A stretch of 64,000 nt of DNA from Clostridiales bacterium (GCA_029227635.1 JAQYAH010000005.1:1-64000), one strand, 5' to 3'; shown: positions 51,952 to 64,000, counted from the stretch's first letter. Made by a program: numbers and translations. Notes: a model not told the origin generated them from the letters alone.

Positions 51952-54915
51952 ATGAAGAGAAAAATCAAATCTATAATTGCATTATTGCTCGCGGCAGCGA
52001 TGGTCATTCCTTCATATTCGGCTTTTGCTGAGGAACCGGAGGAAACAGAAGGTGTATCCCAGCCGTTGGAGATCACAGAGACGTTGGAACAGGAGGAGGA
52101 AACCGGTGAGTCAACAGAGACTATGCCGGTGGAAAGTGAACCGGAAGACTTTTCAGCAGTACCGGATGAGAACCCTCATCAGGTGATGAATGACAGTGAC
52201 AATGTGGACCTGATCTATATGCAGCAGGAAGGTGTAGAGGAGATTACCACCTACGCAAGGACTTTTGCTTTGGGTTCGCCGGTGGTTGACTTTACCCATG
52301 ATGCTTCCGGTGCAGCGGTCAGTTCCAGTACTACCATTAGTTACACTGAGGCGGAGACTGGTAGAAGCGGTTATTTGAACGGAGCCTATGCCGGAGAAGG
52401 TGCTTATCTGGGAACTGAGTCCGGAAAAGTTAAGTTTATGATCTCCGGTGTAACAGGTCTTGTAGATGAGTCCAAAGTAAATGTGACTACATTGGATGCT
52501 CTTTCCGGGTACAGCTATTATTATTCTGAAAGCGGACTTTTAAAGCATCACATATATACTGCTGTTGGCAGTGTAAATCTGAATAACGGAACCTGTCCTT
52601 CATATATCAGCTCCGGGACTAAGTACTACAGCTATGACGGTCATTACTTTTATTCGGATTATGACACAATGCTCTCAGATTATACTAAAGGTGTGAGAAC
52701 ATCATCAGTTAACTCAGGCTCGCCTTTTTATAATTATTACCAGTTCCTTCCTTTTAGAAGTACTGCTGTTTATTCGGCATCTCAGTTTAACACAGCTATC
52801 AACAATATCGTATCCTCATCCTCCAAGATGAGGGATATCGGAAGTGATCTGGTAAATTGTCAGAATAAGTATGGAACCAATGCCCTTTTGATGGCAGGTA
52901 TAGCGGCTAATGAATCTGCCTGGGGAGCCAGCAATATTTCCCAGACCAAGAACAACCTTTTTGGTATTAATGCAGTGGACACTAACCCGGCAGGTTCGGC
53001 AAACTCCTTTGCCACTGTAAGTGAGTGTATTACGGAGTATTCCAGCCGTTACCTCTCAAAACAGTACTTAAGACCCGGATATACCTATTATAAGGGAGCA
53101 TGTCTTGGCAACAAATCTGTGGGAATGAACTGGCATTATGCCAGCGATCCCTACTGGGGAGAGAAAAACGCAGCTACAGCCTATCGTTTGGATACAGCTA
53201 TGGGCGGGACCGATAAAGGTCGTTATACAATTGGAATCAAGGATATGCTGAATTCCTTTACGGATCTTAATATCAGAGCGGAGGCCAGCACCTCATCATC
53301 AAAGATCTACACCACCGGAGTTAGTCACACATATCCGGTTATCATTCTTGGTGAATCCGGTACTTTCTATAAAATCCAGAGTGACGGTGTGCTCAACAGC
53401 AGCAGGACTGGAGTGGATTCCTCCACTGGTGTATATGATTTTTCAAAGAACTACGGTTATGCAAGCAAAAGCTACATCACCAAGGTGATCTCCGGAAGCG
53501 GCGGAACCATAACGGAACCGGAAAATCCGGTTACTCCCGGCAAAAACAGCATAGTATACAGCTCCTATGTTCAGGGCCAAGGCTGGCAGGAGGAAGTGTG
53601 TGATAAGGCTACTTCAGGTACCACTGGTGCTTCAAAGCAAATCGGTGCGGTGAAGATAAAGCTTAATAATCCATCCTATTCCGGTTCAGTAGAATACAGT
53701 GTTTACCTAAATGGATCAGGCTGGCAGGATTATAAGGCTGACGGAGCAGTTGCGGGAAATGCCTCGGATACTTCCTCTATCGGAGCGATAAAGGTGAGAC
53801 TCACCGGAAGTATGGAGTTTAATTACGACGTATACTACAGAGCTCACTGTCAGCAGCTTGGATGGCTTGGTTGGACCAAAAACGGAAGCCCCGCAGGCAA
53901 CTCTGACTTCGGTTACAGAATGGAAGCCTTTGAGATCGTGCTGGTTCCAAAAGGAGGAGCTGCGCCCGGTTCCACTGAGGAGCCTTACAAGCGCTACAAT
54001 TATCTGAGTTATTCTGTACATGCCCAGACTTACGGAGATCTTGACTGGGTTGCTGACGGAGAGAGTGCTGGAACCACCGGGGAATCCAAGCGGCTTGAAT
54101 CAATCATGATAAAGTTAGATGAGGACTGTCCCTACACCGGAGGAATTGAGTATAAGGTCCACTGTCAGACTTACGGTTGGAAAGATTGGGCAAAAGACGG
54201 AGCCCGGGCCGGAACCACCGGAGAGTCAAAGCGGGTGGAGGCCATTATGATAAGACTAACCGGAGATATTTCCAACAAATTCGATGTCTACTACAGAGTA
54301 CATGCTCAGCGATACGGCTGGCTTGACTGGGCTAAGAACGGTGAGATCGCCGGAACTACCGGTGTCAGCTACAGGCTGGAAGCCATCCAGATAGTTCTTG
54401 TTGACAAAGATTGTCCGGCTCCCGGTCTCACGGATCAGCCTTTCAAACAGCCCATGATCAGGTATCAGGCTGACATTGGAGGCTACACCGGCTTCCATTG
54501 GTCTTCCGTAATTGACGGAGGCGGTGTCTGCGGTACCTACGGACAGGCAAGGGGGTTGGAGAATATAAAGATTCAGCTCACAAGCCTTAAGCCTTACTCC
54601 GGCGGAATTAGCTACAGTGTCTATGACAATGCCAAATCAAAGTGGTTCCCTGCGGTGTCCAACAATCAGATTGCGGGATATGAGGAAGATGGTCACATAA
54701 TAGGTGCCATTAAGATCAATCTTACCGGAACCATGGCTCAGAAATACGATGTCTACTACAGAGTCCACTGTCAGACATACGGCTGGCTGGATTGGGCTAA
54801 GAACGGACAGGCGGCAGGAACCGGACAGGGTAAGAGAGTTGAGGCAATTCAGATCATGCTGGTCCTCAAAAATGACTACATGCCCGGAACTACCACAAAG
54901 CCCTTCATAAATTAG
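51952..54915 (+). CDS. Secreted glucosaminidase-domain protein with nine ChW-type repeats
   Basis: Signal peptide; glucosaminidase-like NALLMAGIAANESAWGASNISQTKNNLFGINAVD; C-terminal ChW repeats (HCQTYGWKDWAKDGARAGTTGESKRVEAIMIRL). Confidence 0.9.
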   Translation: MKRKIKSIIALLLAAAMVIPSYSAFAEEPEETEGVSQPLEITETLEQEEETGESTETMPVESEPEDFSAVPDENPHQVMNDSDNVDLIYMQQEGVEEITTYARTFALGSPVVDFTHDASGAAVSSSTTISYTEAETGRSGYLNGAYAGEGAYLGTESGKVKFMISGVTGLVDESKVNVTTLDALSGYSYYYSESGLLKHHIYTAVGSVNLNNGTCPSYISSGTKYYSYDGHYFYSDYDTMLSDYTKGVRTSSVNSGSPFYNYYQFLPFRSTAVYSASQFNTAINNIVSSSSKMRDIGSDLVNCQNKYGTNALLMAGIAANESAWGASNISQTKNNLFGINAVDTNPAGSANSFATVSECITEYSSRYLSKQYLRPGYTYYKGACLGNKSVGMNWHYASDPYWGEKNAATAYRLDTAMGGTDKGRYTIGIKDMLNSFTDLNIRAEASTSSSKIYTTGVSHTYPVIILGESGTFYKIQSDGVLNSSRTGVDSSTGVYDFSKNYGYASKSYITKVISGSGGTITEPENPVTPGKNSIVYSSYVQGQGWQEEVCDKATSGTTGASKQIGAVKIKLNNPSYSGSVEYSVYLNGSGWQDYKADGAVAGNASDTSSIGAIKVRLTGSMEFNYDVYYRAHCQQLGWLGWTKNGSPAGNSDFGYRMEAFEIVLVPKGGAAPGSTEEPYKRYNYLSYSVHAQTYGDLDWVADGESAGTTGESKRLESIMIKLDEDCPYTGGIEYKVHCQTYGWKDWAKDGARAGTTGESKRVEAIMIRLTGDISNKFDVYYRVHAQRYGWLDWAKNGEIAGTTGVSYRLEAIQIVLVDKDCPAPGLTDQPFKQPMIRYQADIGGYTGFHWSSVIDGGGVCGTYGQARGLENIKIQLTSLKPYSGGISYSVYDNAKSKWFPAVSNNQIAGYEEDGHIIGAIKINLTGTMAQKYDVYYRVHCQTYGWLDWAKNGQAAGTGQGKRVEAIQIMLVLKNDYMPGTTTKPFIN
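53550..54875 (+). repeat. ChW repeat region: three triplets (about 53550-53955, 54000-54410, 54460-54875)
   Basis: Manual alignment of translated units. Confidence 0.75.
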
Positions 54916-60152: not shown

Positions 60153-60181
60153 TTGCCATATGATTTATGAGATGGTATACT
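60153..60181 (+). promoter_or_regulatory. Putative promoter TTGCCA-N17-TATACT upstream of the DUF5717-like gene
   Basis: Spacing 17, about 50 bp upstream of the start region. Confidence 0.55.
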
Positions 60182-60203
60182 ATTCTAGTTAGATTGCGTT
60201 TTT

Positions 60204-63200
60204 TTGCATAGAATTGCGGAGCAGGTGGTTCCAGTGAAAGAGAAGATCAATCAGTTTTATAATGATGTTTTTGATGACAAAAGAAAAACACTGATCCTTC
60301 CTTCTACCCGTATCTTTTTCCATGTTAGGAAAGACGGGCAGTATAGCGGAAGCTTCGTCATAAAGAGCGGAGACTCAAGAAATGTGAGGGGTATGATCTA
60401 TACCTCTGACTACCGCATGCGCCTCAGAGAGACCGGATTTGACAGCCGTCAGACCAAGATCTCTTTTACCTATGATGCCTCAGGACTTACCCCCGGGGAG
60501 ATGCAGAAAGGCAAGTTTATTATAGTAAGTGAGGCGGGGGAATATGAGATCATCTTTACTGCTATGATCGAGATCCCTTACATCGAGACTTCCATGGGTA
60601 AGATCACCAATCTGGAAGAATTCACAAAGCTTGCTAACTACAATTACAACGAGGCGGCCAGTCTTTTTGCCTCCATAAAGTTCAGAGAAGTTATTGAGAA
60701 CGAGAAGGAGGAGGTTCAGAGCTACTATGAGGCGCTGAGAAAGATCCAGCTTAATCGAAACTCTCTGGAGGAATTCCTTATCGGAACCGGAATGAAGGAG
60801 AAGATCAGGATCAAGGTTGCAGACAAGGAACGCCTTTATGAGAACGTGGGAAGGACCCATACAGACTATATTGAAATCTCAAAGAACACCTGGGGATTCA
60901 TTCCTATCAGAGTGGAGACGGAGGGAGATTTTATCTCTGTGGATCTTGATGAGTTTACTTCCATGGAGTTTAAGAGCAATCGCTATGAGCTGGAATACAA
61001 GATTCTGATCAGTAAACTCCACAGAGGAAGGAATTTCGGATGTATCCGAATTATCAATCCCTACGGTACGGATGTGGTCAGGGTTGAGGCTTTTTCTGAG
61101 ATAACTGACGAGGATACCCTCAAAGCCTCAAAGGAGATTCAGAAGAAGAAGCTTGATCTTATCAGATACTACATTGATTACAAGTTCAAGAACCTGGGAC
61201 TTAATGTCTGGGCTTCAAAGAGCAAGGATATATTAAGTATTCTGGACGGAGGAGATGAGGAGGATACAGATTCAATTTATCCCCTTATCAGAGCCTATAT
61301 TCTTCTTGAGGAGAAAAAGACAGACGAGGCCAGAGTTGTTCTTGAGCCTTATGATAAGAAACGTTGGAGCAGAAATACCAACGTGGAGAACAAGGCGTTC
61401 TATCTCTTTTTGTCCTCCAAAGTCAAGAGGGAGCTTTCCTACTCGCTCAGAGTGGTAGACGAGCTTCAGAGACTTTATGACAGGAATGAGGACAACTGGG
61501 GAGTACTCTGGTCGCTTTTACAGGTGAAGGAGAACCTCATCCAGAACGGAGACCGACGTCTTCAGGTGCTGTCCAATCAGTGGGATTCAAGAAAGTTCCA
61601 CAGTATTCTCTATGTTGAGTCCTATCTGGCACTTATCGATCAGCCCGGACTCATTGATCTTGGAGATGCCTTCATTGTGCGCGTGCTTCTTTTTGCCATG
61701 AAGAGGGACATTTTAACCAGGGAGATAGCTTCCAGTATTGCCCTTGCAGTTACAAGACAGCACAGCTTTAATAAGTTTATTTTCAGCATCCTTAAGCGGT
61801 GCTATGAGCTTTTCCCTTCTAAGGAGATCCTCTCGGCAGTTTGCCGATACCTTATTTTGGGAGAGAAGACGGACAGAGAATACTTTATCTGGTACGAGAG
61901 AGGTATCAATGAGGGTATACACCTGGCCAAGCTCTATGAGTTTTTCCTGTACTCTGCGGGGGACGACAGGCTCACGGTTCTACCGGAAGCAATCTTTTTG
62001 TACTTCAGCCATCAGACGGAGCTGAGTGCCGAGAAGAAAATATTCCTCTACTCAAATCTGGTGAGACATCAGGCGGAGTACCCGGAGATCTATGATAACA
62101 ACTATGAACGTATGAAGGAGTTCACAAGGCAGCAGCTGATCGCCGGAAAGATCTCAGACAACCTCAGAGTGCTTTACAGGCATTTTCTGCCGGTATTTGA
62201 GCATACGCCGGAAATCTCGGATTCGGTTGCCAAGATAGTGTATACATATGAACTAAGAGTAGACAGACCGGATATCAGATACGCGGTGGTTATCCACAAC
62301 GGGCTTTCAAAAGCTGTCACAGTTCCGGTCATCGGAGGAACTGCCATGGTTCAGGTATACACCGGAGATGACCGAATACTGCTTAGAGACAACAGAGGGT
62401 ATACCTATTCCAACACAATAAACTTCGAGCTTAACCGACTGTTCCCTGAGGACAAGTATATCAGGGACCTGCGAAGAGAAGGTTGCGATAATATTGGAAT
62501 CCTTCTTTCAACCTGTGAATCAAGAATCATCGACCGGGACAACGAGAAGTATTATGAGATGCTTGTGACCAATGAGCAGGTGAGAGAGAAACTAAAAAGA
62601 GACACCAAGTGCAGTCTGTTGTTCTATCACTTTGAACAGGACAACACTTCCAAGGTCAAGCAGTACCTCTCTGAGGTCGATGAACTTTGGCTTGATGCGC
62701 AGGAGAGAAGCAAACTCATCGGTATATATCTGAGACAGAATCAGATCAAGAAGGCCTATGATGTCATCCGCAATTTCGGTTTCGAGGAAGTGGAACTCAA
62801 ATATCTAACGGAGCTCTGCAGCCGCTTTATCAAGGAAGAGTACTATCACGAGAACCGGCTTTTGCTGGCAGCCTGCTATTCCTGTTTTTGCAGGAACTGC
62901 TGCGAGGATTCCATGCTCTCTTTCCTGGTGGATTTCTTTATCGGCAAGACCTCGGACATGATGAATGTCTGGGAAGTAGCCAATGAACGGGGATTCAAGG
63001 TGGCAAGGCTTGAGGAGAGAATTCTCACCCAGATGCTTTTCTCCGAGGAACTGGTAAATGAGGAAGAGCTTTTCTATCACTACTATGTGAACGGAAGCAA
63101 TGAGAGAATCAGAAAGGCCTATCTGGCATACAGATGCTACGGGTATTTTGTTAAGAATCAGATCCTGCCGGAAAATTTCTTCGAGTATATTGAGACGGAA

Positions 63201-63761
63201 TTTGCTCATTCAGAGAGAATAAATACTATTTGCAAGCTGGCGGCGCTGAGGTACTACTCTGTGGAGGAAGCTAACGATCAGCTCATCAGGAGAATGCTCA
63301 ACGAGTTTCTGGATGACAGTATTTCCCAAGGATTTATGTTCTCCTACTTTACAAAGACAGGAGCAGAAGTTCTCAAGAAGTATCTCATGAACAATCGGGT
63401 GATGGTTCAGTATCAGAGTACAAGACGAGGCAAAGTTACGATCTACTACATGATCTGCAATGAGAATACTCACACAGAGAATTACAAAAGTGAGATCATG
63501 AGGGAGATATATAAGACATACTTCCTCAAAGAGTTTGTTCTCTTTTCCGGTGAAGTGCTCAAATACTTCATTATTGAAGAGACAGACAAGGGAAGCAGCG
63601 TGGTGGAGATCGGCGTCATCGATGAGAAAGACATCCGACACGATGACCACGGAAGATTATCAGAGATCAATAATATGCTTGAGGATGAGAGACCCGAGCA
63701 TTTACTGGAGGACTATGAGCGGAGGAATTATCTCACCGGTCAGCTTTTCCAGATACTTTAA
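60204..63761 (+). CDS. Large uncharacterised protein (DUF5717-like); true start probably GTG 60225 or 60234
   Basis: 1185-codon open frame; beta-rich N-terminal part followed by long helical-repeat-like region; no signal peptide or TM seen. Confidence 0.8.
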   Translation: MHRIAEQVVPVKEKINQFYNDVFDDKRKTLILPSTRIFFHVRKDGQYSGSFVIKSGDSRNVRGMIYTSDYRMRLRETGFDSRQTKISFTYDASGLTPGEMQKGKFIIVSEAGEYEIIFTAMIEIPYIETSMGKITNLEEFTKLANYNYNEAASLFASIKFREVIENEKEEVQSYYEALRKIQLNRNSLEEFLIGTGMKEKIRIKVADKERLYENVGRTHTDYIEISKNTWGFIPIRVETEGDFISVDLDEFTSMEFKSNRYELEYKILISKLHRGRNFGCIRIINPYGTDVVRVEAFSEITDEDTLKASKEIQKKKLDLIRYYIDYKFKNLGLNVWASKSKDILSILDGGDEEDTDSIYPLIRAYILLEEKKTDEARVVLEPYDKKRWSRNTNVENKAFYLFLSSKVKRELSYSLRVVDELQRLYDRNEDNWGVLWSLLQVKENLIQNGDRRLQVLSNQWDSRKFHSILYVESYLALIDQPGLIDLGDAFIVRVLLFAMKRDILTREIASSIALAVTRQHSFNKFIFSILKRCYELFPSKEILSAVCRYLILGEKTDREYFIWYERGINEGIHLAKLYEFFLYSAGDDRLTVLPEAIFLYFSHQTELSAEKKIFLYSNLVRHQAEYPEIYDNNYERMKEFTRQQLIAGKISDNLRVLYRHFLPVFEHTPEISDSVAKIVYTYELRVDRPDIRYAVVIHNGLSKAVTVPVIGGTAMVQVYTGDDRILLRDNRGYTYSNTINFELNRLFPEDKYIRDLRREGCDNIGILLSTCESRIIDRDNEKYYEMLVTNEQVREKLKRDTKCSLLFYHFEQDNTSKVKQYLSEVDELWLDAQERSKLIGIYLRQNQIKKAYDVIRNFGFEEVELKYLTELCSRFIKEEYYHENRLLLAACYSCFCRNCCEDSMLSFLVDFFIGKTSDMMNVWEVANERGFKVARLEERILTQMLFSEELVNEEELFYHYYVNGSNERIRKAYLAYRCYGYFVKNQILPENFFEYIETEFAHSERINTICKLAALRYYSVEEANDQLIRRMLNEFLDDSISQGFMFSYFTKTGAEVLKKYLMNNRVMVQYQSTRRGKVTIYYMICNENTHTENYKSEIMREIYKTYFLKEFVLFSGEVLKYFIIEETDKGSSVVEIGVIDEKDIRHDDHGRLSEINNMLEDERPEHLLEDYERRNYLTGQLFQIL

Positions 63762-63781
63762 GAAGAAGGGGGTGACTTTTT

Positions 63782-64000
63782 TTGAACAGAAAAGTAAGAG
63801 TAATCGGTTATGATCTTAACTACGACTATTGTCAGATCTCCTATAGCGGAGCGATTGAGGAGGAACCGGAGACTCTGTACCTCATGGATGAAAAAGAAGG
63901 CACCGAACTTCCTCTTATCATTGCCCGGCGCAACGACAGCACCGAGTGGATCACCGGAATGGAAGCCAGGAGGATCGATACACTTTCCGATGGGTTGGTA
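63782..64000 (+). CDS. Start of an actin/Hsp70-like (DUF5716-like) protein, truncated by window edge
   Basis: TTG start after GAAGAAGGGGG; MNRKVRVIGYDLNYDYCQISYSGAIEEEPETLYLMDEKEGTELPLIIARRNDSTEWITGMEARRIDTLSDGLV, phosphate-1-like motif VIGYDLN. Confidence 0.6.
   Translation, partial: MNRKVRVIGYDLNYDYCQISYSGAIEEEPETLYLMDEKEGTELPLIIARRNDSTEWITGMEARRIDTLSDGLV

Follow-up and report, generated by a model that had tools for sequence, protein, structure and literature searches.

Close to the 3' end of the 64,000-nucleotide stretch of Clostridiales DNA analyzed here (the window, G000:C5:1-64000), a long gene is followed almost immediately by a second one that runs off the end, and the pair raises the question of what a predicted helical-repeat scaffold and a predicted actin- or Hsp70-like protein might do together. 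Both belong to protein families, DUF5717 and DUF5716, that lack any established function in Pfam or in the open literature that we searched, as the original prediction for this locus had supposed. Full-text searches returned no paper describing either family, and the lone literature mention of DUF5716 was a stray motif match in a human protein.

Genes and predicted architecture of the unit

Extension along contig C5 (167,532 bp) completed the second gene and revealed a third, TPR-like gene downstream that had not been anticipated. The features of the locus are as follows:

60153..60181, + strand: promoter-like TTGCCA-N17-TATACT with TG ahead of the -10 element (10/12 matches)
60223..60228, + strand: likely ribosome-binding site AGGTGG of gene 1 (sequence)
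60234..63761, + strand: gene 1, putative DUF5717 scaffold protein, 1175 aa, GTG start (ORF call, Pfam, AF2)
60291..61097, + strand: predicted N-terminal double beta-sandwich region of gene 1, residues about 20-288 (sandwiches 26-124 and 193-288; AF2 model)
61110..62240, + strand: predicted helical-repeat solenoid 1, residues 293-669 (AF2; Foldseek matches to TPR scaffolds)
62244..62438, + strand: predicted small beta domain, residues 671-735 (AF2 model)
62574..63380, + strand: predicted helical-repeat solenoid 2, residues 781-1049 (AF2 model)
63396..63623, + strand: predicted C-terminal beta-sandwich, residues 1055-1130 (AF2 model)
63782..64000 and on to 65041 of contig C5, + strand: gene 2, DUF5716, putative degenerate lidless Hsp70, 419 aa, TTG start (Pfam, AF2, Foldseek, motif alignment)
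65055-65846 of contig C5, beyond the window and 13 bp past gene 2, + strand (co-directional): gene 3, TPR-like, 263 aa (contig extension)

The open reading frame of gene 1 spans 60204-63761 on the + strand and would encode the 1185 aa originally proposed if read from a TTG codon. The GTG at 60234 is the more likely start, because AGGTGG lies 5 nt upstream of it and position 1 of the DUF5717_N profile aligns to residue 1 of the resulting protein. The promoter-like element predicted ahead of the gene is present, but such matches occur in this region at chance level (12 found vs 13.3 expected from shuffles). Gene 2 starts where it had been predicted, 20 bp 3' of gene 1, and its TTG codon at 63782 is preceded by GAAGGGGGTG.

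The family labels originally proposed proved correct. Over its full length gene 1 consists of DUF5717_N plus DUF5717 (PF18984, E 3e-228, 760 bits; PF18983, E 6e-77, 259 bits; curated cut-off 25), and gene 2 matches DUF5716_C (PF18980, E 1e-81, 275 bits; curated cut-off 34.7). Gene 3 scores at best 22.3 bits for TPR motifs at a cut-off of 27, while its orthologue in a locus from another family (L041) reaches 43.5 bits. Neither NCBIfam nor PADLOC gave a match for any of the three genes, searches of PDB sequences returned no usable relatives, and TM segments were predicted in none of them, as had been expected for gene 1.

In the AF2 model of gene 1 (pLDDT 81; pTM 0.48, so that the packing of domains is unsure), the anticipated pair of N-terminal sandwiches followed by helical repeats is joined by a beta insert and a C-terminal beta-sandwich that had not been foreseen. 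Foldseek matches of this model are local and weak (query TM-scores of at most 0.18) and include chains of the cilium central pair, TPR scaffolds such as Ctr9, Ski3, and Naa15, and the SPD-2 domain of CEP192; those to the central pair probably run via Ig-like beta domains. The model thus supports a putative scaffold function of DUF5717, and the matches back nothing more specific.

Elsewhere in the window, positions 51952-54915 encode a secreted protein of 987 aa with a glucosaminidase-like region and repeats, which we take to resemble clostridial hydrophobic-W repeats.

Distribution, gene order, and the link to motility

Of 196 genomes sampled from the order, 93 carry DUF5717 and 89 carry DUF5716, and the predicted association of the two is borne out: 88 genomes encode both, 6 only one (5 DUF5717, 1 DUF5716), and 102 neither (p 2e-48). 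All 22 genomes sampled from the window's own family, the Lachnospiraceae, have both as single copies. No copy above the cut-off was found outside the order in samples of the class (196 genomes) and the phylum (399 genomes), nor did we find copies of the unit on plasmids. No association was seen between DUF5717 and the sporulation regulator gene Spo0A (p 0.62). DUF5717 relatives are also encoded in four "Bacteriophage sp." entries that lack annotation and derive from faecal samples (MT835486, MT835988, MT837190, and MT835719; H1-H4); these entries are probably bacterial DNA.

Wherever contig ends and the simple gene caller permit a reading, the 80 named Lachnospiraceae loci show genes 1, 2, and 3 in a near-constant order, typically with a gap of about 15 bp followed by a small overlap. 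Contigs were scanned for DUF5716 with a narrower alignment, a wider one being too diverse. Downstream of gene 3, contig C5 encodes an amino-acid ABC transporter and then purB, and these are also the more usual neighbors in relatives with full flanks (purB in 49/56, an amino-acid ABC transporter permease in 45/56).

A chaperone system serving motility or surface-appendage proteins would fit part of this distribution. DUF5717 is enriched in flagellin-bearing genomes (82 with and 11 without flagellin among carriers vs 52 and 51 among the others, p 8e-9; family-stratified p about 0.001), and 3' of the triad in motile Lachnospiraceae there is a gene for a coiled-coil protein with two TM segments that tracks flagellin across the order (both in 116 genomes, the protein alone in 5, flagellin alone in 18, neither in 57; p 2e-27). 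However, the signal within families comes largely from a single one of them, and the two-TM gene is also found beside valS without DUF5717, so that its adjacency to the triad may be incidental. Moreover, the triad is kept in non-flagellated Lachnospiraceae including the window genome and three others (G102, G110, and G173). Given these non-flagellated carriers, we consider a dedicated motility role unlikely, though it ranks first among the alternatives.

The two-TM protein itself is uncharacterised, 370-500 aa long, and has a membrane hairpin between coiled-coil-like stretches (e.g., L052:11348-12556 and L041:3694-4851); its gene is often near valS. As a candidate membrane anchor of the system it was dropped in view of these copies next to valS without DUF5717.

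DUF5716 and the Hsp70 fold

With most of gene 2 lying beyond the window, the fold of DUF5716 was modelled on the orthologue of [Ruminococcus] torques ATCC 27756 (locus L067; ca. 36% identity with the gene 2 protein of the window) using 38 further orthologues (pLDDT 82, pTM 0.81). The best Foldseek match of this model in the PDB is DnaK (E 4e-16), and almost all of the best 50 matches are members of the Hsp70 family (DnaK, Hsc70, BiP, Ssz1, and Sse1). The prediction of an actin/Hsp70-type fold thereby held up: on this model, DUF5716 is placed in the Hsp70 fold with an actin-type nucleotide-binding domain (NBD) followed by the beta part of the substrate-binding domain (SBD-beta). It would share this architecture with DnaK and HscA but, at 419 aa, differs from them in the absence of the alpha-helical lid (SBD-alpha; the model ends after SBD-beta), of a conserved hydrophobic interdomain linker in the alignment, and of the phosphate-loop motifs.

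Compared with the reference motifs GIDLGTTNS (phosphate-1), D-GGGT-D (phosphate-2), and EPTAA (catalytic Glu), all three sites are degraded in 26/26 DUF5716 orthologues aligned, including that of the window, which reads GYDLNYDYC and GFENNTM at phosphate-1 and phosphate-2. The parts affected in every sequence are the TTN of phosphate-1, the GGGT of phosphate-2, and the catalytic Glu itself. Housekeeping DnaK and three Hsp70s of a related gene cluster described below (Hsp70-A, Hsp70-B, and Hsp70-VWA) retain the same motifs apart from small substitutions. Since the degradation extends to all 26 orthologues compared, DUF5716 is probably a pseudo-ATPase. Binding of ATP may nonetheless persist and is still compatible with the sequence, because the Asp of phosphate-1 is kept in most members; some gut members have Glu instead.

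These data bear directly on the active actin/Hsp70-like ATPase, served by DUF5717 as a co-chaperone scaffold, that the original prediction implied. The modelled fold, the phosphate-1 Asp of most members, and the paralogues in the related cluster that keep every motif all speak in its favor, but the uniform loss of TTN, GGGT, and catalytic Glu and the further exchange of Asp for Glu in some gut members place it below the motility role, as decidedly improbable. DnaK was not found in the window genome (87% complete), and another Lachnospiraceae genome encodes, besides DnaK, a 1095-aa ORF with an Hsp70 domain (G118:C19:113509-115155).

The extended cluster and the proposed working of the triad

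In families other than the Lachnospiraceae, all of them in the same order, a longer operon starts with DUF5717 and goes beyond what had been predicted from the window. Alongside DUF5716 it includes up to three motif-intact Hsp70s (one of them fused to a VWA domain), a GrpE-fusion, a separate beta-sandwich protein, and a TPR protein, and an orthologue of gene 3 is recognisable in these clusters. At locus L041 the cluster consists of DUF5717 (1006 aa), Hsp70-A (558 aa), the GrpE-domain fusion (564 aa), a DUF5716 orthologue (472 aa), Hsp70-B (545 aa), Hsp70-VWA (725 aa), the TPR protein (382 aa), and the two-TM protein (386 aa). We found no J-domain (DnaJ) match among these eight proteins or those of the triad, and, in the literature searched, no published account of a cluster that combines several Hsp70s with a nucleotide-exchange factor of its own. 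The VWA fusion (L041:6048-8222, - strand, and orthologues) has a DTTGS metal-site-like motif. In the GrpE-fusion, the GrpE domain sits at the C-terminus of a helical protein of 280-645 aa (L041:11232-12923, - strand, and orthologues), and this protein is apparently the dedicated exchange factor of the extended cluster.

How do triad and extended cluster relate? Most other families encode the counterpart of gene 1's N-terminal beta region as a gene of its own (hmmsearch E 1e-48 to 3e-17), so that gene 1 of the Lachnospiraceae has the look of a fusion. Hsp70-B, scored as matches of at least 600 bits with counts read from the table, is present in 64/71 DUF5717-positive genomes of other families, in 0/22 Lachnospiraceae, and in 1/103 DUF5717-negative genomes. 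A maximum-likelihood tree, which has several long branches and is drawn with a mere midpoint root, splits DUF5716 from DnaK, Hsp70-A, and Hsp70-B on a 100/100 branch and places the DUF5716 of one extended cluster (L037) as sister (100/99) to the Lachnospiraceae clade (100/100). When the Hsp70s are taken as outgroup, the extended cluster comes to lie on either side of the triad, and the simplest history is therefore that the triad is a reduction in which the Lachnospiraceae lost the active Hsp70s. We give about even odds to the broader proposal that the order carries an undescribed multi-Hsp70 machine, made up of three motif-intact Hsp70s (one with VWA), a pseudo-Hsp70, the GrpE-fusion, a TPR adaptor, and a beta-sandwich/solenoid scaffold, of which the Lachnospiraceae would retain a reduced form of pseudo-Hsp70, scaffold, and TPR protein as a chaperone-type complex centered on a catalytically inactive Hsp70.

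The composition of the extended cluster also recalls biological-conflict (defense-type) systems of the GTPase/Hsp70/GrpE kind. GAP1-N2 clusters contain an HSP70, GrpE, a second HSP70, TPR-fused beta-sandwich proteins, and vWA domains (Kaur et al. 2020; PMC7159879), so that several Hsp70s, GrpE, vWA, TPR, and beta-sandwich proteins are shared, and two Hsp70s of the extended cluster have a weak PADLOC match to the candidate system PDC-M61B. However, the GAP1-N2 domain (PF20013) is absent from 11/12 carriers tested and the DUF5717/DUF5716 system is without a GTPase/GAP1 component, while no variable effector was seen. Furthermore, its single-copy, chromosomal presence in every Lachnospiraceae genome sampled, its confinement to one order, and the lack of plasmid copies or of PADLOC matches to the triad resemble the distribution of a core gene, and we rate a role in conflict lower than an active ATPase. 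A link to envelope biogenesis, suggested earlier from the adjacent uppS-cdsA-dxr-rseP genes of the window, we reject as very improbable, since this adjacency is not conserved (among 56 relatives with full flanks, rseP and dxr lie near the unit in 2, and cdsA and uppS in 1) and genes 1-3 are without predicted TM segments.

We favor, at a probability of roughly 0.55, a three-gene cytosolic chaperone-type complex in which DUF5716 would act in an Ssz1-like, hydrolysis-independent manner on a DUF5717 scaffold. This explanation builds on the fold prediction, the motif loss, the composition of the cluster, the co-occurrence of its genes, and the nesting of the triad; a physical complex, peptide binding, and the passing on of clients are inferred. 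Gene 1 would form a long scaffold from beta-sandwiches and TPR-like solenoids and gene 3 a small TPR adaptor, while gene 2 would be an Hsp70 descendant that has kept the NBD fold and the peptide-binding beta domain and lost the lid and the residues for ATP hydrolysis. DnaK without its lid takes up and releases peptides rapidly and has low affinity for them, and Ssz1 is a lidless Hsp70 that binds ATP without hydrolysing it as a fixed partner within the RAC complex (PMC7083937). By analogy, DUF5716 may be a constitutive, fast-exchange subunit that is held by DUF5717 and binds clients or partners independently of ATP hydrolysis, perhaps passing clients to housekeeping DnaK; with no J-domain protein in the cluster scanned, such a hand-over would be without a known partner.

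The likeness to Ssz1 of the eukaryotic ribosome-associated complex is one of analogy, not orthology. Both would have a lidless Hsp70 fold and an ATPase cycle that is not completed (PMC7083937), and the role of Ssz1 as constitutive partner of another protein is the one that we propose for DUF5716. However, Ssz1 has a J-domain protein as its partner and does bind ATP, whereas the phosphate loops of DUF5716 are degraded and its presumed partner is a beta-sandwich/TPR solenoid.

Compared with the Pfam descriptions returned, the Hsp70 relationship, the motif loss, and the extended cluster are new. Two domains of unknown function that are present in 22/22 sampled genomes of a family with many gut-dwelling members thus gain a predicted fold, a likely identity as degenerate Hsp70 for one of them, and an ancestral gene set, and they may provide a bacterial counterpart, open to testing, of eukaryotic pseudo-Hsp70s like Ssz1.
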